In this document: positions 49,322 to 64,000 of the stretch, piece after piece
Position numbering within the stretch: position 1 is the first letter of the stretch
How the letters are laid out: every line of letters begins with the position of its first letter
Source of the DNA: Nitratidesulfovibrio sp. SRB-5
GTDB lineage: Bacteria > Desulfobacterota > Desulfovibrionia > Desulfovibrionales > Desulfovibrionaceae
Direction: 5' to 3'
NCBI RefSeq assembly: GCF_019931275.1
Contig: NZ_JAIOTY010000002.1
Location: 764,131-828,130 of the forward strand
DNA length: 64,000 bases
Program-made: the position numbers and the translations under genes
Notes under the pieces: generated by a model
Database searches by the model: none
What the model saw: the letters and a program-made list of their open reading frames with translations, nothing else
Told to the model about the DNA's origin: nothing

Positions 49322-49398
49322 GCGCCCGTAGCTCAGTTGGACAGAGCAGGAGCCTTCTAAGCTCTTGGCCGGGGGTTCGAATCCTCCCGGGCGCGCCA
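49322..49398 (+). tRNA. tRNA-Arg(UCU), reads AGA/AGG
   Basis: A full cloverleaf can be drawn: acceptor GCGCCCG / CGGGCGC, D-arm GCTC-AGTTGGACA-GAGC, anticodon stem GGAGC / GCTCT with loop CTTCTAA giving anticodon TCT, a T-arm with loop TTCGAAT, discriminator G and an encoded CCA at 49396-49398. A hairpin terminator follows. Confidence 0.95.
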
Positions 49399-49445: not shown

Positions 49446-50074
49446 CATTTTGGAATCTCTCCCACTCTCTACCACCTTCTGTGAGCCGTCGCCATAGTTG
49501 AGAAATTTCGCCATGTGAGTTGAGAATGCTGGTTTCTCAGGTCGGGTGGCAGGCGTCATGCTCGCCGCGCGCGGGGCGTGGGGGGCAGGCCTGCCCTCTT
49601 TTCGTTGATATGTGCAATGCGCACGGCAAGGAGACATCAGTGGCACCCGATGCATGCTGGGTACTTGGAGCGTTCGCCGAGCTTGCCCCGACTTGACCTG
49701 AGACGCCTTCTGGAACGAAGGAGGGAATGTCGTTCTGGTGGAAGTGCAAACGAACCATCAATCGGGTACCATGCTCATGGAGTTCCTCTCTGGGGGGCAA
49801 CCAGAACATTACCCGGCACAAGGCAGGGCGTCTTGATTTTATGAGGGAATCTGAAAGGATACCCAGCAAGGCTGCATGATGGTGCTTTTGGGGGATGTCT
49901 TTTCCCGGTATCAGGCGGCACGGGATGCCGGGAGAAAGTGCAGTTCAAGGTCAGCCTCCGAAAGCCGAATCTGCATGGCCGGGGCGAGGAAGCCCCGGAG
50001 CATGCTGTCTGATCGAAGTTGAATTGCTACCTGCGACTGCCAACGCTCAGGATTTTGCAACGTTGCACGAACCG
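49446..50074. other. 629-base low-complexity gap after the tRNA, no gene recognised
   Basis: This stretch is visibly less GC-rich than its neighbours. Frames on both strands are short or broken and match nothing I know. Its position directly 3' of a tRNA gene is where integrated elements often leave remnants, but I see no integrase motif and no repeated copy of the tRNA end. Confidence 0.4.
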
Positions 50075-50740
50075 ATGCCCCACCAGACCCGTACCTTTGC
50101 CTTGGGCGACATCCATGGCTGCCGTGACCGACTGGAGGCGCTGCTGCGCCGCCTGCCGCTGGACCGCGAGCGGGACACAGTGGTGTTTCTGGGCGATTAC
50201 GTGAACCGGGGGCCGGACAGCAGGGGCGTCATCGACCTGCTGTTGGGGGTGCAGCGCACCTGTCCGGGCGCAGTCTTTCTGCGCGGCAACCACGAACAGA
50301 TCCTGCTGGATTACGCGGATACGGGCGATGCGGACCTGCTGCCGCTGCTGCGCTTTCTAGGGGTGGAAGCAACCCTGCGCAGTTACGGTGTGGATACGCC
50401 GCACCGGCTGGCCGGGCTGGCCTGCCTGCCGCCGGAGCACACGGCCTTCCTGCGCGGGCTGGCCTTTGCGCACGAAACACCCACCCACGTCTTCGTGCAT
50501 GCCGATCCGGGGCTGACCGACGACCCGCGCAGCGAAACCCAGCGCCTGGACAGCCGCCGCCTGGTGCGGCGGGACATGGCCCCGCACGACCATATCGGTG
50601 GGCGCACCGTGGTCTTCGGGCACAGTTCCTTTGCCACACCGCTGGTGGCTCCGGGCCGCATCGGCATCGATACGGGCGCGGGCGGCGGGCACATGCTCAC
50701 CGCACTGGAGCTGCCCGCCCTGCGTTTCCACCACGCCTGA
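50075..50740 (+). CDS. PP2A-like serine/threonine metallophosphatase (PrpA/ApaH group)
   Basis: 221 residues with the calcineurin-like phosphoesterase motifs in order: FALGDIHGCRDRLEALL, VVFLGDYVNRGPDSRGV, VFLRGNHEQILL, and the later VFVHADPGL and VVFGHSSF histidines. Such two-metal enzymes dephosphorylate Ser/Thr or small phosphodiesters. ATG 50075 (MPHQTRTFALGDIHG) gives the normal N-terminus but has only a weak ribosome-binding site. It is convergent with the large PEP-synthase-like operon, whose end is 149 bases away; a link with that phosphotransfer system is possible but speculative. Confidence 0.85.
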   Translation: MPHQTRTFALGDIHGCRDRLEALLRRLPLDRERDTVVFLGDYVNRGPDSRGVIDLLLGVQRTCPGAVFLRGNHEQILLDYADTGDADLLPLLRFLGVEATLRSYGVDTPHRLAGLACLPPEHTAFLRGLAFAHETPTHVFVHADPGLTDDPRSETQRLDSRRLVRRDMAPHDHIGGRTVVFGHSSFATPLVAPGRIGIDTGAGGGHMLTALELPALRFHHA

Positions 50741-50889
50741 GCGGCGGCGTGTTCTTGCAGAGTGCGTGCGGGCGTCTTTTCCGCCAACGCCTGCTTGTCA
50801 GGCCCGACTCGGCTTGTGTGCTGTGGGCCGAACCGACAGCCTGCCCAGCTTCTCCCCATCTCGCGTTGTCCGGTTCCGGCTTGTCGCCG

Positions 50890-53661
50890 TCACTTCTGTC
50901 CTGAACCGGTCGTGGCGTCGTGTCCGGCATTCAACCCGGCGGCATCCCGCAACACCCGCGCGTCCTTGGTGTCGTACCTGCCGGACAGGAAGGCCCGTGC
51001 GAACAGCGCCGGAGTCTCGTCGTCGGTCATGGCCGCGTCCAGCAGGCGGGTGTAGCCCAGCAACCGTCCCAGCAGCACCAGCCGTTGCCGCATCACACCG
51101 GCGGGTTCCCCTGCCAGCGAGGCCGTGAGCAGATCGTCCACTGCCGCCGTGAAGAATCCGGCCCCGGCCAGCACCTCGCGCATGAAGGCAATGCGCCGCG
51201 CCCGGCGCGCCCCGCCCGTGCCGCCGCCCTTGAACCGGAAGCGGATGTGGTTTTCGCGCGGGTTGTCGGTACACAGCGCATCCAGCATGGCAAAGTGGTA
51301 TTCCACCCGCGCGTTGAGGTTGCAGTAATCGCGCGAGACCAGCGCATAGTTGAAATCCCCCACAGGCCTCTCGCCGCGCCCGTCCAGCAGCGCGCGCGAC
51401 AGCAGCCCGGCGGGCACGCCCCCATCGGGCGGGCCCCAGGCCAGCCCCGGCGTGGTCAACCCCTCGCACAACGCCGCGAACGGCACCGAGGCCACGTCTT
51501 CCGGAATGGCCTGCAGCGCCGTGCCCCTCGTATTGCCTCGTGCCCCTCCGCTGGCCGCTCCGTTCCGGAAACCGCCGCCCACATCGATGGCCAGCACGTG
51601 GAAGGGCACGCCCAGTTCCACGCGTCGTAACAGGGTTCCCGCCGTCTCCATCACCTCGTCCCCGGCCCGGAACATGGCCAGAACGGCCTTTTCGTGCACG
51701 TAACGCACGATGTCGTGCAGCGAACGGCATTCCCGTTCGTTGAACGTGGGGCCGTAAGCGTCGGTAAGGTTCAGCGGCACGACCAGCGAGCGCAGTTCCC
51801 GTTCGCCGGGCGTCTCCCTGTCGTGCGGGGTGCGCCTTCGCGCGGCCTCGCGCCGGGTGGCGGCCAGCACGCCGTCCCACAGGGCGTCGGGCACTTCCAG
51901 CACGGCCCCGCGCCCTGCGTCCACCAGCACGCCTGCGCCTTCGGCCAGATTCATGGCCCCTGCCACCCCCACCAGCATGGGGATGGCGCGTTCGCGGGCC
52001 ACGCACGAAAGATGGTCTGCCGGGTTCCCGGCCTCCACCATGATGGCCGCGTAGCCGTCCAGATGCGTTGCCGCGTCGGGGATGCTGTGCGGCAGTACCA
52101 GTACGGCTGGGGCGTCGTTGTGTGGTGCGGCATCGCCGCCGGTATCGCCACTTTTGCCAGCGCCGCCGGTTCCATTGTGTCCTGTTGCCGCGGTCCCGTT
52201 CGGCGGCGCGAATTCGCGGGGCCTGTGCGCCAGGTGTGCCCGCCCCAAGGCCCTGCCCGGCGAGGCGCAGGCCCCGCGCAGCAGCGGCGCGCCGTCCATG
52301 CCGTCCTGATGCGCGGCGGATGGGGGCCGGGTCCCGGCCATGCGCAGGGGGCGGGCCTGCAACAGAAGCACCGCGCCGGTGGCTTCATGCACTGCCCATT
52401 CGATGTCCTGCGGGCCGTCCTCCACGCCTTCCACCATGCGGGCCAGCCGCACCAGCGTGGCCAGTTCCGGCGGCGACAGCGTGGGGGCTTCGGCGTCTTC
52501 CGGGGGGACAGGACGCCGGACCAGCGTGCCGTCCGGTTCCAGTGTTTCGCGCAGGGTCTTGCGGGCGATGCGTGTTTCCACGTCGCCCGCCCGCACCGCC
52601 GCCGGGTCACGCGCGGGCAGGTAGACGTCCGCCGGGGCGGCCCCGTCCACGGCCAGCGTGCCCAGGCCCGGCACGGCCACCACCAGCATGCGCTCGTCGT
52701 CGGCCTGATAGCTGCCCGGCGAACGGGCAGGGTCGCGCGTGAACAGCACCCCGGCGGTGCGGGCGGGCACCATGGCCTGGCACAGCACGGCCATGTCCGC
52801 CTCGCCGCGCGGCAGGCCCATGTGCCGCCGGTAGGCCAGGGCGCGCTGGCCAAAGGCACTGGCTGCCACTTCGCGCAGGGCGTCCAGCAGTGCTTCCGGC
52901 GTGCGGACGCCCAGCACCGTGGCGTATTGCCCGGCAAAGGAATGCTCTGCCCTGTCCTCCGCCGTGCCGCTGCTGCGCGCCGCCAACAGCAACGGACCGT
53001 GCTCCGGGGGCAGGCCTGCCGCCAGATCAGCCCATGCCCGGCGCACCGCCTGTTCCACTTCGGCGGGCATGGGGGCGGCCAGGATGGCTTCGCGGATGCG
53101 CGCGGTGGTCACCGCAAGGCTGCCCGGATCGGCCTCGGCCACGTCCAGCAGGCGGCGCAGCTGTGCCTCCAGCCCCGGCGCGGCCAGCAGGCGGGCCACC
53201 GCCGTGGCGGTAACCACGAACCCGGGCGGCACCGGCAGCCCGTAGCCGCGCAGCCGTGCCAGCGTGGCGGCCTTGGTGCCTGCCAGACCGGCCTGTTCCG
53301 GCGGCAGGTCGTCCAGTGAAAGACACAGAATCTCCCCCTCCCGCGCCGGGTCAGTGTCCGCGCCCAGTTGCTCCACCCGCCCCGCGATGCCCCCGTACGC
53401 CCCGAACAGGCCGGGATGCGCCCCGTCGGACAGCAGGTCCAGGCCGTCCACCAGCTCGCCGGTCAGCGAGACCAGTTCTTCCACCAGTTCGCGGCGGGTA
53501 GTGCCTGATGTGCCGTCGAAACCGGCCAGGCATTCCAGCGCCCGCCCGTTGTTTTCCAGCAGGATGCGGAAGGCGTGATAGCGGGCTTTCAGCGTGTCCA
53601 GCGCCGCTGCCTGCCGCGCGGCCCTGCGTGCGCGCCAGCGTTCCAGAAGGTGGTGCAGCAT
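50890..53661 (-). CDS. PEP-synthase-like paralogue 1 (923 residues): ATP-grasp, phosphohistidine domain, novel C-terminal domain
   Basis: Domains in order: an N-terminal helical region (about 20-100); a PPDK_N-type ATP-binding domain (about 110-440) with AGTKAATL, LAARSSGTAEDRAEHSFAGQY at 226-246 and PQDIEWAV...LLLQARPL at 418-439; a swivelling domain with His550 in GNPADHLSCVARERAIPM, where phosphohistidine would form; and then about 280 residues that do not resemble the PEP/pyruvate barrel but match its two neighbours (CRSLHDIVRYVHEKAV at 645-660, DYCNLNARVEYHF at 778-790). ATP could thus load a phosphate on His550 for an unknown acceptor. A Gly/Thr-rich insert (residues 488-512) separates the domains. 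It is the last gene of the operon; its ATG is two bases after the preceding stop. Confidence 0.82.
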   Translation of the reverse strand: MLHHLLERWRARRAARQAAALDTLKARYHAFRILLENNGRALECLAGFDGTSGTTRRELVEELVSLTGELVDGLDLLSDGAHPGLFGAYGGIAGRVEQLGADTDPAREGEILCLSLDDLPPEQAGLAGTKAATLARLRGYGLPVPPGFVVTATAVARLLAAPGLEAQLRRLLDVAEADPGSLAVTTARIREAILAAPMPAEVEQAVRRAWADLAAGLPPEHGPLLLAARSSGTAEDRAEHSFAGQYATVLGVRTPEALLDALREVAASAFGQRALAYRRHMGLPRGEADMAVLCQAMVPARTAGVLFTRDPARSPGSYQADDERMLVVAVPGLGTLAVDGAAPADVYLPARDPAAVRAGDVETRIARKTLRETLEPDGTLVRRPVPPEDAEAPTLSPPELATLVRLARMVEGVEDGPQDIEWAVHEATGAVLLLQARPLRMAGTRPPSAAHQDGMDGAPLLRGACASPGRALGRAHLAHRPREFAPPNGTAATGHNGTGGAGKSGDTGGDAAPHNDAPAVLVLPHSIPDAATHLDGYAAIMVEAGNPADHLSCVARERAIPMLVGVAGAMNLAEGAGVLVDAGRGAVLEVPDALWDGVLAATRREAARRRTPHDRETPGERELRSLVVPLNLTDAYGPTFNERECRSLHDIVRYVHEKAVLAMFRAGDEVMETAGTLLRRVELGVPFHVLAIDVGGGFRNGAASGGARGNTRGTALQAIPEDVASVPFAALCEGLTTPGLAWGPPDGGVPAGLLSRALLDGRGERPVGDFNYALVSRDYCNLNARVEYHFAMLDALCTDNPRENHIRFRFKGGGTGGARRARRIAFMREVLAGAGFFTAAVDDLLTASLAGEPAGVMRQRLVLLGRLLGYTRLLDAAMTDDETPALFARAFLSGRYDTKDARVLRDAAGLNAGHDATTGSGQK

Positions 53662-53663
53662 GG

Positions 53664-56228
53664 TCAACCCCGTGCCTGCCGCTGCGAATGTTCGCGCAGC
53701 AGGCGGAAATCCGTGGCCGCGCGCACCAGGTCGGCGTCGTCGTTCAAGGTGGTGTCCACCTGCCGGGTAAAGGCCGTCAGCATGCCCAGCGCGCCCACGG
53801 CGTCGCGCAGGGCGGCGTGTTCCATGGCGCGCAGCCTGCCGGTGACCATGTCGCCGCGCATGCGGGTGGCGAAGCCAAGCTCTTCCAGCACGTTGCGTAC
53901 AAGATGGGCGCGGCGCACCCGCCGGGCCGGATCGGCCATGCCCCCCGCAAAGCGGAAATAGGCGTGGTTGCGGTTGGGATTGTCGCTCAGCAGCACGTCC
54001 AGCACGGTGAAATGGTAGCCGAGACGCAGGGTGAGGTTGAGGTAGTCGCGCCCGGCGATGGCCAGGTTGGCCCCGGTGGCGGCCCACTCTGCATGCGGTC
54101 CGGCCCCGTTCGCGGCATTGCCCGCCCCGCCAGCCATCCCGGACAGGATGTCGCCCGCGCGCAGCCGGGCAGGGCGGTGGGACCACGCGCCCTCTGCGCG
54201 CAACCCGTCCAGAAAGGCCAGCAGGGGCGCGCTGCGCACGGCGGACAGGTCCATCCATGCGTCGCCCCCCGACAGTGCGCCCGCCCCGTCCGCCATGCCG
54301 GGCGGCACGGCCACGCCGTCGCCCACGTCCAGCAGGCGCAGGTCCAGCGGCAGGTTCAGCCGTACCCTGTGCACGCGCGGCGCAGCCAGTTCGGGGCGGG
54401 TGTCGCGCAGGTTGATCAGCGCCTCCACGGACATTTCGTGGCAGAAGTGCAGGATGTCGTGGTAGGTGCGGCAGCCCGCCGGAGAAAAGTCGGGCGCGTC
54501 GGGGTCCACCAGGTCCAGCGGGGCCACCAGACGCAGCAGGCGGCGCAGGGTGCGGTATTCCGGCGCGGCGGGGTGCAGGTCTTCGTTCGCGTCCGTGGTG
54601 TGCAGCAGCCCTTCCACCGCGCCCTGGTAGAGCACCGTGCCGCCTGCGTCCAGGGTGACGATGTCGCCTGGCCTGGCTGCGTCGCACACGCCGGGCATGC
54701 CGAACACGGCGGGTACGCGCAGTTCGCGCGCCACGGTGGCCAGATGACCGGCGGTGGTGCCGAATTCGGTGACCAGCCCGGCCAGCCTGCCAAGCAGGGG
54801 GGCCAGGTTGGGCGAGGCGGCGCGCGCCACGCCGATGCCGCCCAGCGGGCAGTCCTCCGGTCTGGTGGCTTCCGTCAGGCGCACCACGCCGCCCGCGGCC
54901 ACGCCCATCTGTACGGTCTGTCCGCCGTGCCGCAGTATGTGCATGGCGTGGGCGTCGTCCGCGTTGCCTTCCGAATCGGCTGGTTCCTCCGGCTGGTCCT
55001 GCGGGTTTGTCGCCAGCCGCACCGTGGACGGGTGAACCCCCAGCAGCACGCAGCGTCCCTCCGGGTCCATGCCCCAGCGTAGTTCCACCGGTTGCCCGGC
55101 CAGGCGTTCCGCCGCCATGGCCAAGCCGGCCAGCCCCTGCAGGAAGGGCGGCTCCAGCAGGGCGGAGCCGCGCAGCAGGCCGCGCAGCGAATCGGAAGGA
55201 GCCAGCGGCTCGTGGCCGTCCGGCAGGGGGGCATTGGCGGCGCGTTGGGGAATTTCGCAACACAGCAGGTCGAAGGGATGCACCCGCGACAGGGCGTAGC
55301 GGTCGGTGGACACGCGGGGGGCGTGCTCCGCTGCGTCTCCAGAGGAAAACCGGGCCTCCACCAGCACGGCATGGCGCACAGGCCCCATGGGCGCGTGGCT
55401 GTGCAGCCAGCCGGAAACGGGCAGGGGAGATTCCGGCAGGATCAGGGCCACCTCGCCATGGGCGCTGCCCGCCTTGCCTGTCGTCGCGGCATCACCCGTC
55501 ACGTCCCGCAACATATCCTGCAATGCAGGGGACAGCATGTCGGGGGCCACCCCGGTACGTTCCGCTTCGCGCTCCGCCGGGCGGCCTGTCTCGTCCACCG
55601 CGCTGATCCGCAGGGTGAAGGATGCGGTGCCGCTGCCCATCCGCACGGCCCGGTCGTGCAGGTCTCGCGCAACGACTTCGGCGTTGGCGCCACCGACCGC
55701 AAGCACCGCGCAGCCGGTCGTGCCCGTCACCAGCGCATCCGCGATGCGCGCCCCGTGGTGGCGGGCCAGCCGGGCCAGGCATGCCGCCTCGAATCCTGCC
55801 GTCGGTTCCTGCTCCCAATCCACGTCGCGCACGTCCGCAACCATGCCGGACAGGCTTCCCGCAGCCGCTCCCGCGCCCGTGTCCGAACCCGGTCCCGCGC
55901 CGTCCATGCCCGCCGCCAGCACGCCGCCCAGCGCACCGCGCAGTTCCTCGTACCTGTCGTACAGTGCCACGTAACCGTTCCCGGTCAGCGCGTTGAGGTT
56001 GTAGACCACGTGATGCACCAGCCGCGACAGTTCGTGCACCGAAGCCTCCAGAAAGGCCCGGTCGAAGATGTACGCGCCGCCGAGGGCTTGGTCCATTTCC
56101 GCCATGCGTTCCATCGCCTGCGTGTTGCAGGCCAGAATGCGCCGGAAGTTCTGGAACAGCGCCCGGATGCGCCAGCGGGTATCCGCCGGGGGCTGCGCGT
56201 TCGCGCGTCTGGAAAACGGCCACCACAT
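53664..56228 (-). CDS. PEP-synthase-like paralogue 2 (854 residues), degenerate ATP domain
   Basis: The N-terminal helical domain (RIRALFQNFRRILACNTQAMERMAEMDQALGGAYIFDR) aligns well with paralogue 3. The region where ATP-grasp motifs should be has no RSS...ED or SFAGQ equivalent, so ATP use is doubtful. The swivelling domain is intact, with His495 in FGTTAGHLATVARELRVPAV, and so is the shared C-terminal domain (CRTYHDILHFCHEMSVEALINL at 586-607, RDYLNLTLRLGYHFTVLDVLL at 727-747). It may act as a phosphate carrier or regulatory partner of the other two. It starts ten bases after the response regulator gene and ends two bases before paralogue 1. Confidence 0.78.
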   Translation of the reverse strand: MWWPFSRRANAQPPADTRWRIRALFQNFRRILACNTQAMERMAEMDQALGGAYIFDRAFLEASVHELSRLVHHVVYNLNALTGNGYVALYDRYEELRGALGGVLAAGMDGAGPGSDTGAGAAAGSLSGMVADVRDVDWEQEPTAGFEAACLARLARHHGARIADALVTGTTGCAVLAVGGANAEVVARDLHDRAVRMGSGTASFTLRISAVDETGRPAEREAERTGVAPDMLSPALQDMLRDVTGDAATTGKAGSAHGEVALILPESPLPVSGWLHSHAPMGPVRHAVLVEARFSSGDAAEHAPRVSTDRYALSRVHPFDLLCCEIPQRAANAPLPDGHEPLAPSDSLRGLLRGSALLEPPFLQGLAGLAMAAERLAGQPVELRWGMDPEGRCVLLGVHPSTVRLATNPQDQPEEPADSEGNADDAHAMHILRHGGQTVQMGVAAGGVVRLTEATRPEDCPLGGIGVARAASPNLAPLLGRLAGLVTEFGTTAGHLATVARELRVPAVFGMPGVCDAARPGDIVTLDAGGTVLYQGAVEGLLHTTDANEDLHPAAPEYRTLRRLLRLVAPLDLVDPDAPDFSPAGCRTYHDILHFCHEMSVEALINLRDTRPELAAPRVHRVRLNLPLDLRLLDVGDGVAVPPGMADGAGALSGGDAWMDLSAVRSAPLLAFLDGLRAEGAWSHRPARLRAGDILSGMAGGAGNAANGAGPHAEWAATGANLAIAGRDYLNLTLRLGYHFTVLDVLLSDNPNRNHAYFRFAGGMADPARRVRRAHLVRNVLEELGFATRMRGDMVTGRLRAMEHAALRDAVGALGMLTAFTRQVDTTLNDDADLVRAATDFRLLREHSQRQARG

Positions 56229-56238
56229 GCGCGCCCCC

Positions 56239-56640
56239 CTACATGCCGTTTCCGGTGCTGCCCCCGCCGCGCAACTCCGCCTCGATGCGCCGTACGCAGT
56301 CCAGAATGTCGCCCAGCTTGAACGGCTTGGCCACGAAGTCGAACGCGCCCTTGCGGAACGATTCCTTGGCCGTGTCCAGCGTGGCGAACCCGGTAATGAC
56401 CACGATGCGCGCCTGCGGCAGTATCTGGTGGGTACGTTCCACCACCTGCAGGCCGTCGGCCCCTTCCATCTTCAGGTCCGTGACCACCACGTCGAACGCG
56501 GTTTCTTCTATGCGCCGCAGGGCAGCGGCGCTGTCGGTGTAGGTCTCCACCTCGTAGCCCGCCTTCTGGAAGGCGGGTTTCAGCCGCTTGCAGACGATGG
56601 GTTCGTCGTCAAGCACCAGGATGCGCAGTCGTGACGGCAT
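56239..56640 (-). CDS. Single-domain response regulator
   Basis: 133 residues consisting of a receiver domain only: acidic residues Asp11, Asp12 and Glu13 in LVLDDEPIVCKRL, acceptor Asp55 in VVVTDLKMEGADG, Thr in VITG, and Lys105 in FVAKPF. With no output domain it would work as a phosphate shuttle or by binding a partner. Its N-terminal half closely resembles the receiver of the sigma-54 regulator at 63295 (both DDEP.VCKRL), so the same kinase may recognise both. ATG 56640 has GGGAGG and overlaps the end of paralogue 3 by 32 bases. Confidence 0.9.
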   Translation of the reverse strand: MPSRLRILVLDDEPIVCKRLKPAFQKAGYEVETYTDSAAALRRIEETAFDVVVTDLKMEGADGLQVVERTHQILPQARIVVITGFATLDTAKESFRKGAFDFVAKPFKLGDILDCVRRIEAELRGGGSTGNGM

Positions 56641-59242
56641 GTCCGCCTCCCTTCCGTTCGATCCGGTCGTCATGGTGTGTGGCGACGACAGTGGAAATTG
56701 CCTCCATGAAGGTCCGCACGTGGTCCGCCACCTGTGCGTCGCTGTGCATGCGGGCGTCCAGCTGGCGGGCATAGCCCACCAGTCCGCCCAGCATGCGCAT
56801 GCGCAGCAGCATGCGCGGTTCCGACAGTTTCTTGATACGGCCTACCACGAGGTCGCCGTGAACCTCCACGCGAAAGTCGAAGCGTTCCAGCACCTCGGCC
56901 ACGAAGCGGGCCCGGCGCGAGCGCCGCACCAGCTCCGTAACCCCGCCAAGGAACCGGAAGTAGATGTAGTTGTCGTTGATGGTGCTGCCTATGTAGGCGT
57001 CGATGATGTTGAAATGGTAGCCCAGGCGCATGTTCACGTTCATGTATTCGCGCAGCACCACGGCCAGGTTGCGGCCCACCTCGCGCGGGCCCGCCTGCGA
57101 GGCGCTGAAGGTGCGCGTGAAGCTGGACATGAAGCTGCCAAGGTCCACCGGCACCGGGGCCGTGTCCCACATGCCCGATTCGGTCAGCCCGTCCAGAAAG
57201 GCGCGCAGCGGCACGGAGCATACCTGCCCGGTGACCAGCCCAGCCTCTTCGGGCAGGCATTCGGTGCCGCCGCCCGCGTCGATGACGGTAAGCCCCAGCG
57301 GCGGGCCGTCCAGCAGGCGGCGGGCCGGGGCGTGGTGCAGCGCCTCGTGCCGCTGGCTGAGGTCCACCAGCGTTTCCACGGCCTTTTCGTGAATGTATCG
57401 GGTGATGTCGTGGTAGGTGCGGCAGGCCCTGGGCTTGAAGTCGTCGGAATGCGGGTCCACCAGGTTCAGCGGCGAGATGCGCTTCAGCAGGCGGCGCAGC
57501 AGCCGGTATTCGTACGATTCCTCGAACACGTCGGTCTCGGTCCGCTCGAAACGGTCCAGCTCCGCGATGCGCCCCCGGTAGATCACGTTCTGGGTGGCGT
57601 CGAGGGTGATTTCCTCGCCGTCGCGCAAGAGTTCGGTGGCCACTTCCGTGTTCACCACGGCGGGCACGCGCTGTTCGCGGGCGATGGTGGCCATGTGCCC
57701 GGTGGGCGAGCCCACGTCGGTGATGATGCCCTGCGCCCGCCGCATGACCCGCGCATAGCGCGGCGAGGTGTACTTGGACACCAGGATGCCGCCGTCGGGA
57801 AAGGTGTCGAGGTCCGTGGCGTGGTCCACCAGCACCACCCGGCCCACGGCCACCCCGCGCTGGGCCACCATGCCCCTGCCGGACAGGATGACCTCTGCCC
57901 GGCTGGTGGCGTCCTGCACCGGCACGCACAGGCCCGCGTCGCCCGTGGAGCACAGCGGGCGCGATTGCAGCACGTGCAGGTCGCCGTCGGCGTCGAAGGT
58001 CCATTCCACGTCCTGGGGACGCTTGTGATACCGTTCCAGCGACATGCCCGCGCGCGCCAGCTGCTCCAGTTGGGCGTCGGTCAGGCTGGGGGCGTCGCGC
58101 TGGTCGGCGGGCACGTCTTCCCGGGTCATGCCGCCCTTGGGCGCGGGCACCATTCGCCGCGTCTTGCGGGCGATTTCGCGGGTGGTGATCCGGTAGGGCG
58201 GGGTGCGTTCCAGCAGAAAGGTGTCGGTGGCCGTCTCGCCGCTCACCACGGCGGCGCCGCCGCCCCACGCGGCGCTGATGACCATGGCCTCGCAGTTGTC
58301 GCCCGCGTGCAGGGCGCAGGTGTACAGCACCCCGCTTGCCCTGCTGTGGGCCATAAGCTGGCAGCCCACGGCCATGGCCACCTCGGTTTCGCGAAAGCCC
58401 CTGTCCAGCCGGTAGCGCCACGCCTCCACGGAATAGACGCTGGCGATGACGTTCTTGTACGCCTCAACCACCCGGTCGGGCGGCACGTTCAGTTCCGTGG
58501 CGTACTGACCGGCAAAGCTGGCGTCGCCGTCCTCGCCCCAGGCGCTGCTGCGCAGGGCCAGGCGCAGGGGCTGCTTGCGGCGCATGCCCAGCACGTCCAC
58601 CATGGCGTTGATCTGGGCCACCAGCCCCCACGGCAGTGGGGCATCGTGAATGCCGCGCTGCATGCGGTCGGAAAGTTCGCGCAGGCCGCCATCGGTGCCG
58701 TCCCAGTCCTGCATGCCGCGCTGGGCCTGCGCGAGCAGGCCGTTGCGGGTCATGAAGGCGAAGAAGGCCGCCGTGGTGATGGCAAAGCCGTCGGGCGTGC
58801 GCAGGTGCAGGCGGTTGGACAGGTCGCCCAGTTGGGCCAGCTTGCCGCCCACCTCGTCCTCGGCATCCGGGCCGATGTCGCGAAACGGCAGCACCAGCCG
58901 CCCCCCCTCGAAATGGTGGCGCCCGGCGATTTCTTCCTGCAACTGGTGCTGGATGCGCTCGAAGGCCAGGAACAGCTCCACGTTCTTGCGCTGGCCCAGC
59001 ACGCTCATGTCCGAGATGAGCTTGAAGACGTGGTCGTCCAGTTGTTCGCAGGCATCGACGATGTACTGGCGGTCGAACACGTATTCGCCGCCCAGCTTGT
59101 CGCCCATGTCGGCCATCAGTTCGAGGATGCGGTTGTTGCGTTCGAGGATGCCCTTGAACTTCTTGAAGAGCAGCGCGAACGGCAGCCCCCGCGAACCGCG
59201 CCAGCGGGCGAGAAGGTCGGCCATGTGCGAGAGGATTCCCAC
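56609..59242 (-). CDS. PEP-synthase-like paralogue 3 (877 residues), most complete member
   Basis: N-terminal helical domain (residues about 20-105, ALLFKKFKGILERNNRILELMADMGDKLGGEYVFDRQYIVDAC). PPDK_N domain with VGGKLAQLGDL (Lys134), RSSAWGEDGDASFAGQY at 231-247 and PQDVEW...LHVLQSRPL at 409-430. Swivelling domain with His516 in GSPTGHMATIAREQRVPAVV. Shared C-terminal domain with CRTYHDITRYIHEKAVETLVDL (607-628), EYMNVNMRLGYHFNIIDAYI (732-751) and YIYFRFLGG. The PEP/pyruvate-binding barrel of PpsA is absent. Known precedents for this layout are rifampin phosphotransferases, in which a different third domain binds the acceptor. Start ATG 59242; the gap to the TIGR02186-type gene is 57 bases. 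Confidence 0.85.
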   Translation of the reverse strand: MGILSHMADLLARWRGSRGLPFALLFKKFKGILERNNRILELMADMGDKLGGEYVFDRQYIVDACEQLDDHVFKLISDMSVLGQRKNVELFLAFERIQHQLQEEIAGRHHFEGGRLVLPFRDIGPDAEDEVGGKLAQLGDLSNRLHLRTPDGFAITTAAFFAFMTRNGLLAQAQRGMQDWDGTDGGLRELSDRMQRGIHDAPLPWGLVAQINAMVDVLGMRRKQPLRLALRSSAWGEDGDASFAGQYATELNVPPDRVVEAYKNVIASVYSVEAWRYRLDRGFRETEVAMAVGCQLMAHSRASGVLYTCALHAGDNCEAMVISAAWGGGAAVVSGETATDTFLLERTPPYRITTREIARKTRRMVPAPKGGMTREDVPADQRDAPSLTDAQLEQLARAGMSLERYHKRPQDVEWTFDADGDLHVLQSRPLCSTGDAGLCVPVQDATSRAEVILSGRGMVAQRGVAVGRVVLVDHATDLDTFPDGGILVSKYTSPRYARVMRRAQGIITDVGSPTGHMATIAREQRVPAVVNTEVATELLRDGEEITLDATQNVIYRGRIAELDRFERTETDVFEESYEYRLLRRLLKRISPLNLVDPHSDDFKPRACRTYHDITRYIHEKAVETLVDLSQRHEALHHAPARRLLDGPPLGLTVIDAGGGTECLPEEAGLVTGQVCSVPLRAFLDGLTESGMWDTAPVPVDLGSFMSSFTRTFSASQAGPREVGRNLAVVLREYMNVNMRLGYHFNIIDAYIGSTINDNYIYFRFLGGVTELVRRSRRARFVAEVLERFDFRVEVHGDLVVGRIKKLSEPRMLLRMRMLGGLVGYARQLDARMHSDAQVADHVRTFMEAISTVVATHHDDRIERKGGGHAVTTAHPGA

Positions 59243-59299
59243 GACTGCTCCGGGTTCGGGGGGCGGCGGGCCGCCCCCCGGTAGTGGCGGGGTGCCCTT

Positions 59300-60064
59300 T
59301 TAATGGGCGCCCTTGCTCTGAAACACCATTCCCACGGCCAACCCGGCCAGGATGGCCACCAGAGTGGCCAGCACGCCGTACAGCAGCCCCCGGTCGAAGG
59401 CCATGTGCGCGAGCCACGCGGGCGCGCCCACCAGTTCGGCCCGCACCGGTACGGAGGTGGAACCCACCACCTGTCCGTCGCGCAGGGCGAACACGTCTAG
59501 CGTGTAGGTGCCGGGCGACATGCGCGAGGGGATGGCCAGTTCGGCGGAGAAGGCCCCGTCGTCGGTGACGGTGATGCCGCCCACGCCTTCGCGGTACAGC
59601 CCGTCGTGCTGCTTCAGGCGCACCAGTTCGGCGGGCACGTCCAGTGTGTCGGCGCCTTGGGCTGCCGAGCCTTCTTCCTGCTGCACCCCGGCGCGCACGG
59701 CGTCGAGGCCAAGGCCGGTGCCGCCGATGTCCGCCAGCGGACGCGACGAGGTCACCAGATACACCGAGGGCACGTCGTGCAGGTGTACGGTGCCCATGTT
59801 CATCCATAGCAGGCCGAAGGCCTTGCCTTTCTGCCGCAGGGCCAGGTCGCCGGAAGCCCCGGTGAACCGGGCCACTATGGCGCTGCCGCGCGGCGCCTCG
59901 CCCGAGAAATGCAGGGTGGTGCCGGTGTACGAGGTGCCGATGACGATGTCGCCGGGCTTCACGGCCAGGGCCACGCCGCCGTCATCGGCGCGTGCCGTGG
60001 CGGCCAGCAGGCACAGGCACAGGAGAAGGCCGAAAATGATGTGCAGCGGATGCGTGCGACGCAT
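59300..60064 (-). CDS. TIGR02186-type periplasmic protein with C-terminal membrane anchor
   Basis: 254 residues: a signal peptide (HIIFGLLLCLCLLAATARA), a beta-rich exported domain (ALAVKPGDIVIGTSYTGTTLHFSGEAPRGSAIVARFTGASGDLALRQKGKAFGLLWMNMGTVHLHDVPSVYLV), and a C-terminal helix (LLYGVLATLVAILAGLAVGMVFQ) that anchors it to the inner membrane. Such proteins are usually encoded next to TauE/SafE permeases and are presumed to assist them. Here the stop of the TauE gene and this start are two bases apart, supporting a complex. The ligand is unknown. Confidence 0.8.
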   Translation of the reverse strand: MRRTHPLHIIFGLLLCLCLLAATARADDGGVALAVKPGDIVIGTSYTGTTLHFSGEAPRGSAIVARFTGASGDLALRQKGKAFGLLWMNMGTVHLHDVPSVYLVTSSRPLADIGGTGLGLDAVRAGVQQEEGSAAQGADTLDVPAELVRLKQHDGLYREGVGGITVTDDGAFSAELAIPSRMSPGTYTLDVFALRDGQVVGSTSVPVRAELVGAPAWLAHMAFDRGLLYGVLATLVAILAGLAVGMVFQSKGAH

Positions 60065-60066
60065 GG

Positions 60067-61005
60067 CTAGTGCCCCCCCGCGTAGGCCAGCAGCACGTCG
60101 GGGCGCGCCAGCAGGTCGAAGAGCATCTTGCCCATGACGGCGAGCACCAGCGTGGCCAGCAGGATCTTCAACTGGTCGCCCTGCAGTTTCTTGCCGATGC
60201 GCGTGCCCACCTGCGCGCCCACGGACGAGCCGATGAGCAGCAGCAGGGCCAGGATGAAGTCCACGGTGTGGTTTTCGACGGACTGCATGACCGTCACGTT
60301 GACGCAGGTGAACAGGATCTGGAACAGGCTGGTGCCCACCACCACGTGCATGGGCATGCGCAGCAGGTAGACCATCACCGGCACCATGATGAACCCGCCG
60401 CCCACGCCCATGATGGCGGCCAGCACGCCCACCAGCGCGCCCAGCCCCAGCGGCATGAGCAGCGAAAGACGCACCCCGGAACGGGGGAAGTCCGTCTGCC
60501 ACGGCATGCTGCGGATGCACCGTTCGTACATCGATTCATCGGTGGGGGCGGGCTTGGACGCGGCCCCGGCGCGGGGCGCCCGCAGCGATTGCAGGCTTTC
60601 GAAGAACATGTAGCCGCCCACCAGCCCCAGCATGAGCACGTAGGTGACGTTGATCAGGAAGTCGGCGTTGCCCATGGCGCGCAGCAGCTTGATGATGCGC
60701 ACGCCCACGCTGCCGCCAGCCACACCGCCCACAAGCAGCAACAGTCCCATTTTGAAATCGACGTTGCCCAGGCGGAAATGGGCCAGCGTGCCGGAGGTGG
60801 AGGCCCCCACGATCTGGTTGGAGTCGGATGCGGCGGCAACCGTGGGCGGAATGCCCAGCATGATCAGCAGGGGGGTCATCAGAAAGCCCCCGCCCACGCC
60901 GAAGATGCCCGAAAGCAGCCCGACGGCCCCGCCAAGGCCCAGAATGGCGGCGATGTTCACGCTGTTTCCTGCTATGGGCAGGTACATGTGCAGCGGTATG
61001 TTCAT
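60067..61005 (-). CDS. TauE/SafE-family membrane exporter
   Basis: 312 residues with two inverted TauE/SafE repeats: AVGLLSGIFGVGGGFLMTPLLIMLGIPPTVAAASDSNQIVGAS and GVLAAIMGVGGGFIMVPVMVYLLRMPMHVVVGTSLFQILFTCVNVT. These multi-helix carriers export sulfite, sulfoacetate or other C2/sulfonate anions. A short soluble loop (RAPRAGAASKPAPTDESMYERCIRSM) separates the halves. It is the second gene of the operon: 32 bases after the UspA-like gene and two bases before the TIGR02186-type gene. Substrate unknown; a sulfur oxyanion is plausible in a sulfate reducer. Confidence 0.9.
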   Translation of the reverse strand: MNIPLHMYLPIAGNSVNIAAILGLGGAVGLLSGIFGVGGGFLMTPLLIMLGIPPTVAAASDSNQIVGASTSGTLAHFRLGNVDFKMGLLLLVGGVAGGSVGVRIIKLLRAMGNADFLINVTYVLMLGLVGGYMFFESLQSLRAPRAGAASKPAPTDESMYERCIRSMPWQTDFPRSGVRLSLLMPLGLGALVGVLAAIMGVGGGFIMVPVMVYLLRMPMHVVVGTSLFQILFTCVNVTVMQSVENHTVDFILALLLLIGSSVGAQVGTRIGKKLQGDQLKILLATLVLAVMGKMLFDLLARPDVLLAYAGGH

Positions 61006-61037
61006 ACGTCAGCCTCGTTGTGGTGCATCAGCGCACG

Positions 61038-61430
61038 TTATGCACGTTTGGGATTCACGATCTCGACCCGGCACGAAATCCGGTGGCGCAGCGCCTGCAA
61101 CGCGGATACGGCATGGCCGGTGGCAGCATGATCGATGGGAGCCGCTTCATGAATGAGCAGCGTTATTCCGTGGGTGTTCACGAATGAAACTATGGCGTCT
61201 TCGTATCCTCCTTCGGCGATGAAATATTCCACGGGAACTCCTTCGGCCTTGGCCGCGCCCACCAGCAGTTCCAGACGCTGGCGCACTGCACCGCCGGAAG
61301 CCCCGGCCCGCGTGCCGTTCACGAACAGCACGTACAGCCTGGCCCGGATGCGCCGGGCCAGCGAACAGCCATGGGCCAGCGCCTCCCAGTGGACGCGGCG
61401 TTCGTCGATGCCAACAAGAATGCGTTCCAT
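61038..61430 (-). CDS. UspA-like universal stress protein
   Basis: 130 residues with a Usp fold start (MERILVGIDERRVHWEALAHGCSLARRIRARLYVLFV) and the ENAAEGVPVEY-type strand (AAKAEGVPVEYFIAEGGYEDAIVSFVNTHGITLLIHEA). The C-terminal ATP-binding loop G-2x-G-9x-G(S/T) is missing, so it belongs to the non-ATP-binding type. Start ATG 61430 has GAGG upstream and lies 13 bases from the predicted sigma-54 transcription start. It is the first gene of the operon that continues to 50890. Confidence 0.8.
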   Translation of the reverse strand: MERILVGIDERRVHWEALAHGCSLARRIRARLYVLFVNGTRAGASGGAVRQRLELLVGAAKAEGVPVEYFIAEGGYEDAIVSFVNTHGITLLIHEAAPIDHAATGHAVSALQALRHRISCRVEIVNPKRA

Positions 61431-61453
61431 GCACGACCTCGTGCGGCGCACTA

Positions 61454-61469
61454 AGCAACCGCGATGCCA
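61454..61469 (-). promoter_or_regulatory. Sigma-54 (-24/-12) promoter of the usp-tauE-pps operon
   Basis: On the minus strand TGGCATCGCGGTTGCT matches TGGCAC-N5-TTGCW with the exact GG-to-GC spacing (second G of GG to G of GC is 11 bases). Transcription would begin near 61443, about 13 bases before the UspA ATG. The divergent gene 63295 encodes a sigma-54-dependent response regulator. Confidence 0.8.
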
Positions 61470-61647
61470 TGCGGGAACGCATTTTTTTGGTGAGTTGTTC
61501 CGGTGTGTTGTCGAAGGGCAGGGCGGAGGAGGGCAGGTTGGACTATTCCATTTTGAACAGCCTGCGCGTAAACATCGTGAAAAATGTTTCAATATGGAAA
61601 TACGGCAGGGGCCAACGCTCGCGCACTGCGGGAGCTTGCCGTTGTCG

Positions 61648-61660
61648 TGTTGTCACAACA
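61648..61660. promoter_or_regulatory. Candidate activator-binding palindrome
   Basis: TGTTGT-C-ACAACA is a perfect palindrome about 190 bases upstream of the -24/-12 promoter, a usual distance for a sigma-54 enhancer. Related GTTGT-type half-sites occur at 61494-61512. Binding by the 63295 regulator is inference. Confidence 0.45.
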
Positions 61661-61675
61661 TGCCGGGAATACAGC

Positions 61676-63295
61676 ATGAACAGCCAGAATGATGCGGGCG
61701 GGGACAATCTGTCTGCCGCAGCAGGTGCGACATCAGAAACGCGCACGGCTGGCGCATCCGGTGCGGCGGGCGCCCCGCCAACGTCCCCTGCCGCATCCGA
61801 CAGGGGGGGAAAGGGCTGCGCCCTCGGCTGCCCCCGGCAGTTCTTCCGCTCCATCAAGGGGAAGATATTCATCCTGTTCGCCGTGACGTTCATCTCCATC
61901 GGCGCGCTGGCCGCGCTGAACTACTGGAGCCTGTCCACGGTGAGCCAGCGGTTGCTGCTGGGAGAACGCTACGACGACCTCCTGAACAACATCCTGGAGG
62001 TGCGCCGCTACGAAAAGAACTACCTGTTCTACCGCGACGCGGGCAGCCTGACGGAAAGCCTGGCCTACCTGGAACGCATCGACGCCCTGACCGCCGAACT
62101 GGCCGACGACATGGCCGTGGTTGCCGGGCAGGCCGAACTGGTGCGCTTTCGCGACCTGCTGGCCCGGTACGGCCATTCGGTGCGCACTCTGGTGCAGGGC
62201 GGCACGGCCAATCAGGAAGAGTTGCGCACCCTTGGCAAATCGCTCATCGACGAGGCCGACGCCCTGCGCAAACAGAAGCGCGAGCGGGCGCACAAGGCGC
62301 TGGAACGCACGCTGGTGCTGCCCCTGGCCTTTCTGGCGGTGTTCCTGCTGCTCATGGTGCTGGTCATCAAGCTCATTTCCACAGGTTTGCTGCGCCCCTT
62401 GGACATGGTGGCAGCCACCACGGGCCGGGTGGGGCGCGGCGACTTCAGCCCCATTGCCACCGGGGCGGAGCAACTGAGCGAGATCGCCAGCTTCATCCAC
62501 GCCTTCAACCGCATGGCGCACGAATTGGCCGTGAATCAGGAGCACCTGTTGCAGGCCCGCAAGATGGCGGCGCTGGGCACCTTTACCGCGGGCATTGCCC
62601 ACGAGCTGAACAACCCCATCAACAACGTGCTGCTGAGCGCCGAAGGTCTGCGCGAGGACTATGGCGATGCCATAGACGCCGACGGGCAGGAGATGATCGG
62701 TGACATCATGCAGCAGGCGGAACGGGCCTCCGACATAGTGCGCAACCTGCTGGACTTTTCGCGCACCGAGCATCCCACCTTCACGGCGCTGCACCCGGTG
62801 GACGTCATAGGGTCCACGGTCAGCCTGCTGAAGAATCAGGTGATGTTGTCGGGCATCAGTCTTGCGGTGCACGTGCCCGCCGACCTGCCCATGGTGCGCG
62901 GCGACCTGCGCAGCCTGCAGCAGGTGTTCATGAACCTCCTGCTCAACGGCATACAGGCCACGCCGCGCGGCGGCGCGGTGGCCGTGGTGGCCATGGGCGT
63001 GCCGCCGGGGCACGTGGCCTTCGAGGTGCGCGATTCCGGCCCGGGCATACCCGAGGAGATTCGCGAGCATATCTTCGAGCCGTTTTTTTCGACCAAGGAG
63101 GTGGGCAAGGGCACCGGCCTTGGTCTGGCCGTCACCTACGCGCTGGTCCACAGGCACGAGGGCCGCATAGAAGTGCATGGCGGCGAGGGCAGGGGGGCGG
63201 TGTTCACGGTGCTGCTGCCCGTGGCCCGGCCCGGAGGAGACAGGGAGAGCGGCGGCATGATTGACGATACTGCGTTTGAAGAGGGGGATGCCTGA
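61676..63295 (+). CDS. Membrane sensor histidine kinase
   Basis: 539 residues. After a disordered 55-residue tail comes a transmembrane helix ([22 protein letters not shown]), a helical periplasmic sensor (about 85-210, with [20 protein letters not shown]), a second helix (about 212-235), a HAMP-like region, and the kinase core: His309 in [16 protein letters not shown]-box [25 protein letters not shown] and GKGTGLGLA. The sensed signal is unknown. It is divergent from the usp-tauE-pps operon and overlaps the next gene start by one base (TGATG), so kinase and sigma-54 regulator are a cognate pair. Confidence 0.92.
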
Positions 63296-64000
63296 TGCTG
63301 TTGTTGCGCGTCGCCATCGTTGACGACGAACCCGTGGTTTGCAAACGCCTCAGCCACGCCCTGTTCAAGGAAGGCTACGAGGTGGAGGCGTTCATGAGCG
63401 CCCGTTCGTTTCTGGAGGCCATGATCGACCGGCCCTTCGACGTGGTGTTCTCGGACATGCGCCTGCCCGACATGGACGGGCTGGAACTGCTGCCCAAGAT
63501 CAAGGCCCTGCGGCCCGAGACCGAAGTGGTCATTGTCACCGGGTACGGCAGTATCCAGACTGCCATAGAGGCCATGCGCGAGGGGGCCTTCCATTACGTG
63601 ACCAAGCCGGTGAACTTCACCGAGATCCGGGCCATTGCCAGGCGGGCGCAGGAAAAGATCGGCATGCGCATGGAAAACGCCCGCCTGCGCGAGGCGCTGC
63701 TGGGCAGTTCCGGCCTGTCGTCCATCGTGGGCAACAGCCCGGCCATTCAGGATCTGTTCGCGCTTGTGCGCAAGGTGGCCCCGGTGGACTGCAACGTGCT
63801 GATCCAGGGCGAAAGCGGCACCGGCAAGGCGCTGGTGGCGCTGGCCCTGCACCACCTTTCCCCGCGCAAGAACCAGCCGTTCGTCACCTTCAACTGCGGC
63901 GGCTTTACCGAGGAACTCATCAGCAGCGAGTTGTTCGGGTACGAGAAGGGGGCCTTCACCGGGGCCAGCGCCAGCAAGGTGGGCCTGCTGGAGGCGGCCA
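63295..64000 (+). CDS. Sigma-54-dependent response regulator (NtrC family), 3' truncated by window
   Basis: 235 residues lie in the window. The receiver domain has AIVDDEPVVCKRL, acceptor Asp54 in VVFSDMRLPDMDG and VTGYG...VTKPV. The AAA+ domain begins after residue 140 with SSIVGNSPAIQDLF, Walker A GESGTGKA and a canonical GAFTGA loop (ELFGYEKGAFTGAS). The DNA-binding domain is beyond the window end. It follows the kinase with a one-base overlap. It is the obvious activator for the -24/-12 promoter at 61454-61469, 1.8 kb away. Confidence 0.93.
   Translation, partial: MLLLRVAIVDDEPVVCKRLSHALFKEGYEVEAFMSARSFLEAMIDRPFDVVFSDMRLPDMDGLELLPKIKALRPETEVVIVTGYGSIQTAIEAMREGAFHYVTKPVNFTEIRAIARRAQEKIGMRMENARLREALLGSSGLSSIVGNSPAIQDLFALVRKVAPVDCNVLIQGESGTGKALVALALHHLSPRKNQPFVTFNCGGFTEELISSELFGYEKGAFTGASASKVGLLEAA

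Follow-up and report, generated by a model that had tools for sequence, protein, structure and literature searches.

The seven-gene operon and its promoter

The genome of Nitratidesulfovibrio sp. SRB-5 carries a compact set of seven minus-strand genes, which runs from 61430 to 50890 of the stretch analysed here (the window, 64,000 nucleotides at C2:764131-828130 of the 4.12-Mb genome). The open reading frame (ORF) coordinates give intergenic gaps of 32, 2, 57, -32 (an overlap), 10 and 2 bases in gene order, and a histidine kinase/sigma-54 regulator pair diverges from the operon. A first reading made from the letters alone (the sequence-only reading) had described this arrangement, and the coordinates agree with it. 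Domain calls refer to Pfam cut-offs applied to nine window proteins, and TIGR and NF models were scored against their own cut-offs.

The first gene (61038..61430) encodes a Usp-like protein of 130 amino acids with a weak match to PF00582 (27 bits against a cut-off of 24). It is followed by a TauE/SafE (TSUP) permease of 312 amino acids (60067..61005; PF01925, 165.7 bits against 32.6, 1.9e-48), for which "exporter" is a family name, and by a PF09608 (Alph_Pro_TM) protein of 254 amino acids (59300..60064; 158.1 bits against 24.5, 3.9e-46). Judged by eye, the latter has a signal-like N-terminal stretch and a C-terminal membrane stretch; its TIGR02186 score of 82.8 bits is under the cut-off of 255.25. 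Next come a PpsA-like protein of 877 amino acids (56609..59242, with an alternative ATG start at 59224; PF01326 and PF00391) and a single-domain response-regulator receiver of 133 amino acids (56239..56640; PF00072 alone), whose gene overlaps ppsA by 32 bases. The operon ends with PpsB (53664..56228, 854 amino acids; PF00391 as its sole Pfam match) and PpsC (50890..53661, 923 amino acids; PF01326 and PF00391).

On the plus strand, the sensor histidine kinase can be read from 61469 to 63295, with HisKA and HATPase_c domains above cut-off and a HAMP match slightly under it. This reading of 608 amino acids is probably too long, and the ATG at 61676 (539 amino acids) is the likelier start, because a start at 61469 would fall within the opposite operon's sigma-54 site and because 44 of 49 matched kinase stretches measure 474-533 amino acids. 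The NtrC-type sigma-54 response regulator (63295..63999, plus strand; Response_reg and Sigma54_activat) runs past the end of the window; its complete frame, taken from locus L043 of the same genome, has 453 codons, 448 of them from the ATG at window position 63295, and contains GAFTGA.

A sigma-54 type promoter, TGGCATCGCGGTTGC, is predicted for the operon at 61455..61469 on the minus strand. It is the sole match to TGGCAYN5TTGC in the window, where 0.48 are expected and 41 of 100 shuffles have one; because such a single match is no higher than chance, the case for the promoter rests on conservation. When up to 1 kb upstream of TauE was scanned in 78 non-redundant loci for TGGCACN5TTGC, with GG and GC obligatory, a site with at most one mismatch was found in 62 loci against 1.7% of mononucleotide shuffles, and one with at most two mismatches in 75 loci against 13.6% of shuffles. 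With a GAFTGA activator beside a conserved, if predicted, -24/-12 promoter, the operon has the arrangement by which a sigma-54 two-component regulon is recognised.

Two further elements stand out when the upstream regions of eight loci, four from each of two genera, are aligned. The palindrome TGAAACATTTTTCA (61578..61591), a candidate upstream activator site some 110-120 bases upstream of the sigma-54 site, is identical in all eight, and close by is the conserved block CATTTTGAA (61549..61557; TTCAAAATG on the opposite strand), a candidate second half-site. We propose that both could be sites of the divergent regulator. The palindrome has a single exact copy in the genome, and a genome-wide regulon search that allowed two mismatches returned 6 forward and 3 reverse matches, no more than the 9 and 8 of a reversed control. 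A simple scan of 50400-61700 found no sigma-70-type site, and terminator-like sites showed no excess (7 against a shuffle mean of 5.9).

Conservation of the gene set in sulfate-reducing bacteria

The gene block is strongly conserved in sulfate-reducing bacteria. PF09608 turned up in 51 of the 199 family genomes, in 67 of the 348 class genomes and in 73 of 395 in the phylum sample, three sets that overlap. In the 49 loci selected through PF09608 (L043-L091, own genome counted), TauE, PF09608, the PpsA-like gene and the receiver occur in the same order in every case. The same 49 loci contain the kinase in 49 cases, the sigma-54 regulator in 48, Usp in 31, PpsB in 28 (one fragmentary) and PpsC in 27.

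A second search of named genomes used PpsA only, by way of two peptide patterns that both lie in its C-terminal domain. It matched 346 stretches, 297 of which encode relatives, and the best 80 were retained and gave 77 non-redundant loci. The receiver is directly downstream of PpsA in 75 of these (the two misses being contig ends), a PF09608 gene is upstream in 75 (one contig end, and one absence at L192), and TauE is upstream in 71 (six contig ends); the median spacings between matched stretches are 23, 33 and 2 bases for the receiver, PF09608 and TauE, respectively. The record titles name Desulfovibrio relatives, Desulfobulbus, Desulfobacterales, Syntrophobacteraceae, Desulfohalobiaceae, Candidatus Desulfofervidaceae and others. 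Pooling with the PF09608-chosen loci gave 139 non-redundant PpsA loci, in which the receiver adjoins PpsA 136 times (two contig ends, one absent), PF09608 is present 136 times (one contig end, two absent) and TauE is upstream 132 times (six contig ends, one absent). The true absences are PF09608 at L192 and all three genes at L258, where an additional copy of the PpsA clade, lacking a receiver, PF09608 and TauE gene of its own, lies close to a complete set. Chance clustering was considered and is ruled out by the recurrence of the same order across the phylum. That the genes form one linked set with the kinase/regulator pair, as the sequence-only reading held, is borne out by the conserved order and the sigma-54 promoter.

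Not all members are equally constant. The 85 loci with wide context contain the kinase in 84 cases, the regulator in 80, Usp in 65, PpsB in 28 and PpsC in 29, and PpsB or PpsC occurs without its partner in only one. The operon therefore has two forms: TauE, PF09608, PpsA, receiver, kinase and regulator, frequently joined by Usp, make up the core form, to which the extended form adds PpsB and PpsC. Usp is the first gene in many homologous loci and was undetected in others. TauE is the most conserved of the six members compared, with a mean pairwise identity of 0.75 over 78 loci.

The association of Pps-like genes with TauE extends beyond this operon. The C-terminal domain of the Pps-like proteins occurs in seven genes at four places in the Nitratidesulfovibrio genome, and all four (the window, L040, L042 and L039) lie no more than about 5 kb from one of the genome's 12 TauE-family genes. 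A rough calculation (12 genes, about 16 kb eligible per place, 4.12 Mb) puts the chance of this at about 5% for any one place. L040 contains TauE, a protein of 232 amino acids, a phosphonate-type binding protein, a kinase, a receiver and a Pps-like gene. At L042:5147-12482 (G000:C1), a Pps-like gene lies beside a sigma-54 activator, which has a Cache match under the cut-off, and a divergent TauE-family gene is near. At L039:5362-17823 (G000:C4), two receiver/Pps-like pairs have a histidine kinase between them, and a TauE-family gene (PF01925) is found about 2 kb further on the opposite strand. Kinase and single receiver genes thus adjoin L040 and L039, and a sigma-54 activator adjoins L042. 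TauE is missing from both of the small controls that are available: 47 kb of the window, with one response regulator, and 40 kb drawn from four places elsewhere, with two receiver-like genes, one of which neighbours a weak kinase match. In the phylum, where at most seven candidates were scored per genome, the C-terminal domain was found in 107 of 297 genomes. Among 20 distant Pps-like loci of 11-15 kb each, hand-picked outside the PpsA clade from the matches listed, a single-domain receiver was seen at 11, a kinase at 10 and a TauE-family gene at 7.

Domains and residues of the Pps-like proteins

PpsA consists of an N-terminal region of about 110 residues, an ATP-grasp domain, a swivelling-histidine domain and an unclassified C-terminal domain of about 310 residues. 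PpsC has an intact ATP-grasp, a swivelling histidine and the same C-terminal domain, and PpsB combines a degenerate ATP-grasp region with an intact swivelling histidine and, again, the shared C-terminal domain. The description of all three as PEP-synthase-like (PEP, phosphoenolpyruvate) therefore needs qualification: each has the swivelling catalytic histidine domain PF00391, a recognisable ATP-grasp (PF01326) is confined to PpsA and PpsC, and the Pfam scan found the PEP/pyruvate-binding domain PF02896 in none of them. True PEP synthase (TIGR01418; PDB 2ols, 9dae, 8a8e) shares the ATP-grasp and swivelling-histidine domains, but carries the PF02896 barrel where the window proteins have the C-terminal domain. 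All three fall under the cut-off of the TIGR01418 model (304.8, 50.8 and 207.1 bits for PpsA, PpsB and PpsC, against 739.75) and under that of NF041857 for rifampin phosphotransferase (233.8, 22.4 and 171.1 bits, against 999). Rifampin phosphotransferase, which we take PDB 5fbs and 5hv1 to be, likewise has the ATP-grasp and histidine domains and transfers phosphate to an acceptor other than pyruvate, but in the window proteins the histidine domain follows directly after the ATP-grasp. L041, the genuine PEP synthase of this genome, contains PF02896 and resembles PpsA in the middle part only; the similarity among the genome's seven Pps-like proteins spans most of their length or their last half.

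The C-terminal domain is the distinctive part of the family. A 66-sequence PpsA profile matched PEP synthases best in the PDB, over positions 107-566, and the best stretches of all 31 hits end by position 585. The C-terminal domain gave no PDB match at E<=1 and no Pfam family among 17 members, apart from four weak one-member hits. His611, Asp612 and His743 are invariant in the PpsA, PpsB and PpsC groups, which suggests that this domain has a working site.

Residue retention was counted on non-redundant rows, after removal of rows shorter than 700 amino acids (0 PpsA, 1 PpsB, 1 PpsC), at positions that we take to be catalytic on the example of PEP synthase and rifampin phosphotransferase. In 107 rows of PpsA, Lys134 is kept in 106, Arg231 in 107, Glu413 in 107, Gln426 in 106 (one unread) and His516 in 106. 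PpsC keeps all five residues in 36 of 36 rows, and an Asp stands beside its swivelling histidine in 46 of 46 rows of the redundant set. PpsB is different: its 38 rows retain the Lys in 0, the Arg in 5, the Glu in 1 and the Gln in 0, with no row keeping two of the four ATP-grasp residues, yet all 38 retain the His. Because the ATP-grasp residues are gone and the swivelling histidine is kept, PpsB may be phosphorylated in trans.

Does the phosphohistidine of these proteins communicate with the receiver? The sequence-only reading suggested that it may feed or sense the receiver, and a version of that idea, in which Pps phosphohistidine feeds or drains the receiver aspartate so that the two-component system reads cell energy or PEP status, finds some encouragement in the data. 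Every one of 105 rows, which include certain genomes twice, preserves the phospho-acceptor Asp, the Thr and the Lys of the receiver, the receiver gene overlaps ppsA, and PpsB resembles a phosphocarrier. The link to PEP status, however, fails on the lack of a PEP-binding domain in PpsA, PpsB and PpsC. Moreover, receivers normally obtain phosphate from HisKA or HPt histidines and not from PEP-utiliser domains, and we consider this model to be quite unlikely.

Proposed control of the permease

The closest published relative is the nitrate cluster DVU0251-DVU0245/Dde_0597-Dde_0605 (PMC4001038), which shares with the operon a TauE permease, a histidine kinase, a single-domain receiver and a Pps-like protein. 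In gene content only, the operon thus has the clustered set of TauE, kinase, single receiver and Pps-like genes that defines this cluster. The cluster has the same layout as L040 of the Nitratidesulfovibrio genome, a likeness of layout and not of sequence, and it has features of its own, namely a phosphonate-type binding protein, a phosphatase and one Pps-like protein; unlike the window operon, it lists no PF09608 gene, Usp or sigma-54 regulator in its published table (PMC4001038). The window and L040 TauE proteins share 26% identity over 216 residues. The phosphonate-type binding protein domain PF12974 is absent from the nine window proteins scanned and present in L040, and no counterpart of the phosphatase gene was identified among the ORFs behind L040. 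The claim that the system looks undescribed holds only in part: a cluster of like layout is in print (PMC4001038), and in the open-access literature we found no description of the operon itself, nor any paper on TIGR02186/PF09608.

The genetics of the nitrate cluster provide the best hint that a Pps-like protein controls a permease. In D. vulgaris, mutants in DVU0251 (TauE), DVU0250, DVU0247 (receiver) and DVU0246 (Pps-like) grew alike with and without 100 mM nitrate, and a mutant in the last gene, DVU0245, remained nitrate-sensitive (PMC4001038); for DVU0250, pooled and single-strain results conflict (PMC4001038). Provided that the genes of the cluster are ordered as in L040, its Pps-like protein as such seems to be needed for the nitrate-sensitive state, because the insertion in it lies downstream of TauE and the D. 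vulgaris mutant in the neighbouring DVU0245 stays sensitive. The authors of that study proposed a leaky thiosulfate transporter (PMC4001038), loss of putative thiosulfate transporters has been linked to nitrate resistance elsewhere (PMC9723548), and, as regards direction, an Archaeoglobus TauE homologue has been assigned a putative role in sulfite import (PMC3949148). The substrate of the window permease is probably a sulfur oxyanion or a related anion.

The operon's regulatory layout has a precedent of its own. In DVU0539-DVU0545 of D. vulgaris, a kinase and a sigma-54 regulator diverge from a Usp/transporter operon, as in the window (PMC3333781, PMC10102598, PMC4641369), and the regulator activates the Usp-gene promoter in E. 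coli, with molybdate phenotypes reported (PMC3333781, PMC10102598, PMC4641369). The layout raised the suspicion that the two operons are the same, which was dismissed because the transporter family differs (PMC10102598): the D. vulgaris transporter belongs to TC 2.A.98, and no PF09608, receiver or Pps-like genes are named in the accounts of that operon (PMC3333781, PMC10102598).

We propose, with a probability of roughly 0.5, that the operon is a kinase-controlled, sigma-54-induced anion transport module in which the Pps-like proteins and the receiver control the permease. The membrane histidine kinase would sense an extracytoplasmic signal and phosphorylate the NtrC-type regulator, which would drive the usp promoter at 61455-61469. 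Among the predicted products are a TSUP-family anion permease (TauE) with its membrane-anchored partner (PF09608) and a putative cytoplasmic control unit made up of the PpsA-like protein, the CheY-like receiver, PpsB and PpsC. The Pps-like proteins would phosphorylate their own swivelling histidine from ATP rather than PEP, PpsB being charged in trans by PpsA or PpsC, and the phosphoryl group would pass to whatever target the unclassified C-terminal domain binds, with the receiver gating its passage; the end result would be post-translational control of the permease. Phosphotransfer, the gating role, the substrate and the direction of transport are the parts of the model that we infer. In its most specific form, an ATP-driven phosphohistidine relay in which PpsA and PpsC charge themselves and pass phosphate to PpsB and to the target of the C-terminal domain, with the CheY-like receiver setting the flow and so placing the TSUP permease under two-component gating after translation, the proposal is speculative, and we would not expect it to hold in full.

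Perhaps the Pps-like proteins are instead metabolic enzymes that phosphorylate the compound handled by TauE, activating or detoxifying it in the manner of rifampin phosphotransferase, with the receiver as a minor regulator. The ATP-grasp residues and swivelling histidine are intact in PpsA and PpsC, and models of small-molecule phosphotransferases have the same domains. PpsB, on the other hand, retains the histidine alone, and to find PpsA followed directly by a receiver at 136 of 139 loci would in our judgement be unusual for a catabolic enzyme. In addition, nitrate-cluster mutants in the Pps-like gene are protected from nitrate just like those in TauE, a likeness that agrees better with permease control than with later metabolism (PMC4001038). 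We regard a metabolic role as the rival to be taken most seriously, although an unlikely one.

Several observations weigh against control of the permease by the Pps-like proteins. The nitrate cluster is a relative and not the window operon; the phenotype of its receiver mutant could stem from a polar effect on the Pps gene; and Dde_0605, the D. alaskensis homologue of DVU0245, has a positive fitness of 2.08 (PMC4001038), which weakens the argument about polarity. One PpsA, that of L179, has lost both the ATP-grasp Lys and the swivelling His, the lone exception among the rows. The alpha-1 regions of receiver and regulator are no more alike within a locus (0.520) than between loci (0.512), so a shared kinase for the two, which had been considered, found no signal there. 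Pps-like genes apart from the kinase, receiver and exporter, which the sequence-only reading had named as the finding that would tell against it, are hardly seen in the PpsA clade, with the receiver at 136 of 139 loci and TauE at 132; eight of the ten receiver or TauE misses there are contig ends, and the other two belong to the one extra copy at L258. Among the more distant members of the family, however, such genes do occur: six of the 20 loci sampled have neither receiver, kinase nor TauE within their 11-15 kb.

The converse also occurs: 13 of 40 phylum loci, some on short contigs, have a TauE-PF09608 pair without a Pps-like gene (L232, L234, L236, L239, L242, L244, L245, L247, L248, L252, L254, L256 and L259). 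TauE scores 368-450 in these pairs against 262-582 in the remaining 27 loci, and all but one of the 13 are accompanied by a gene resembling a kinase, receiver or regulator; possibly they are a second type of pair. In the two alphaproteobacterial records viewed of 12 matched, too, TauE is directly followed by a PF09608/TIGR02186 gene, as in the window, and no gene is annotated as Pps-like or receiver, the gene table of the plasmid being incomplete; in Sphingomonas, the gene next to the TauE-TIGR02186 pair is annotated "ATP-binding protein". The Pps/receiver control unit is therefore an addition and not a universal need of TauE-PF09608. These Pps-less pairs, together with the solitary Pps-like genes among the distant ones, could mean that TauE-PF09608 and receiver/Pps are two units that share one promoter and have no physical coupling. 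Considering the near-invariant adjacency in several orders of the phylum, the TauE-family gene close to the Pps-like genes at each of the four places in the Nitratidesulfovibrio genome and the similar mutant phenotypes within the nitrate cluster (PMC4001038), we find mere co-regulation of neighbours very improbable.

The operon matters in several ways. TSUP proteins are abundant in sulfate reducers, and function predictions for them were judged not feasible by a comparative study (PMC5840216); the operon gives one branch of the family fixed partners, a conserved sigma-54 promoter, a candidate activator site and residues that can be put to the test. The unexplained nitrate cluster, too, can be viewed in its light, since cells there withstand nitrate after losing the Pps-like protein or the receiver just as they do after losing the permease, and nitrate is a means of controlling souring. 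A large ATP-grasp/phosphohistidine family shares the C-terminal domain, which is still unclassified, and a sensor-regulator pair and phosphohistidine proteins tied to a permease may be a new on/off switch for transporters. If true, the relay would be an ATP-run counterpart of regulation by the phosphotransferase system, widespread in Desulfobacterota.

Some smaller observations concern gene placement. At L179 (1-13285), PpsB and PpsC lie upstream of TauE and not behind the receiver. In the window, a plus-strand ORF with a calcineurin-like phosphoesterase domain (PF00149) is found at 49895-50740, just beyond the end of ppsC, and a tRNA-Arg (tct) gene occupies 49322-49398 on the 3' side of the operon.

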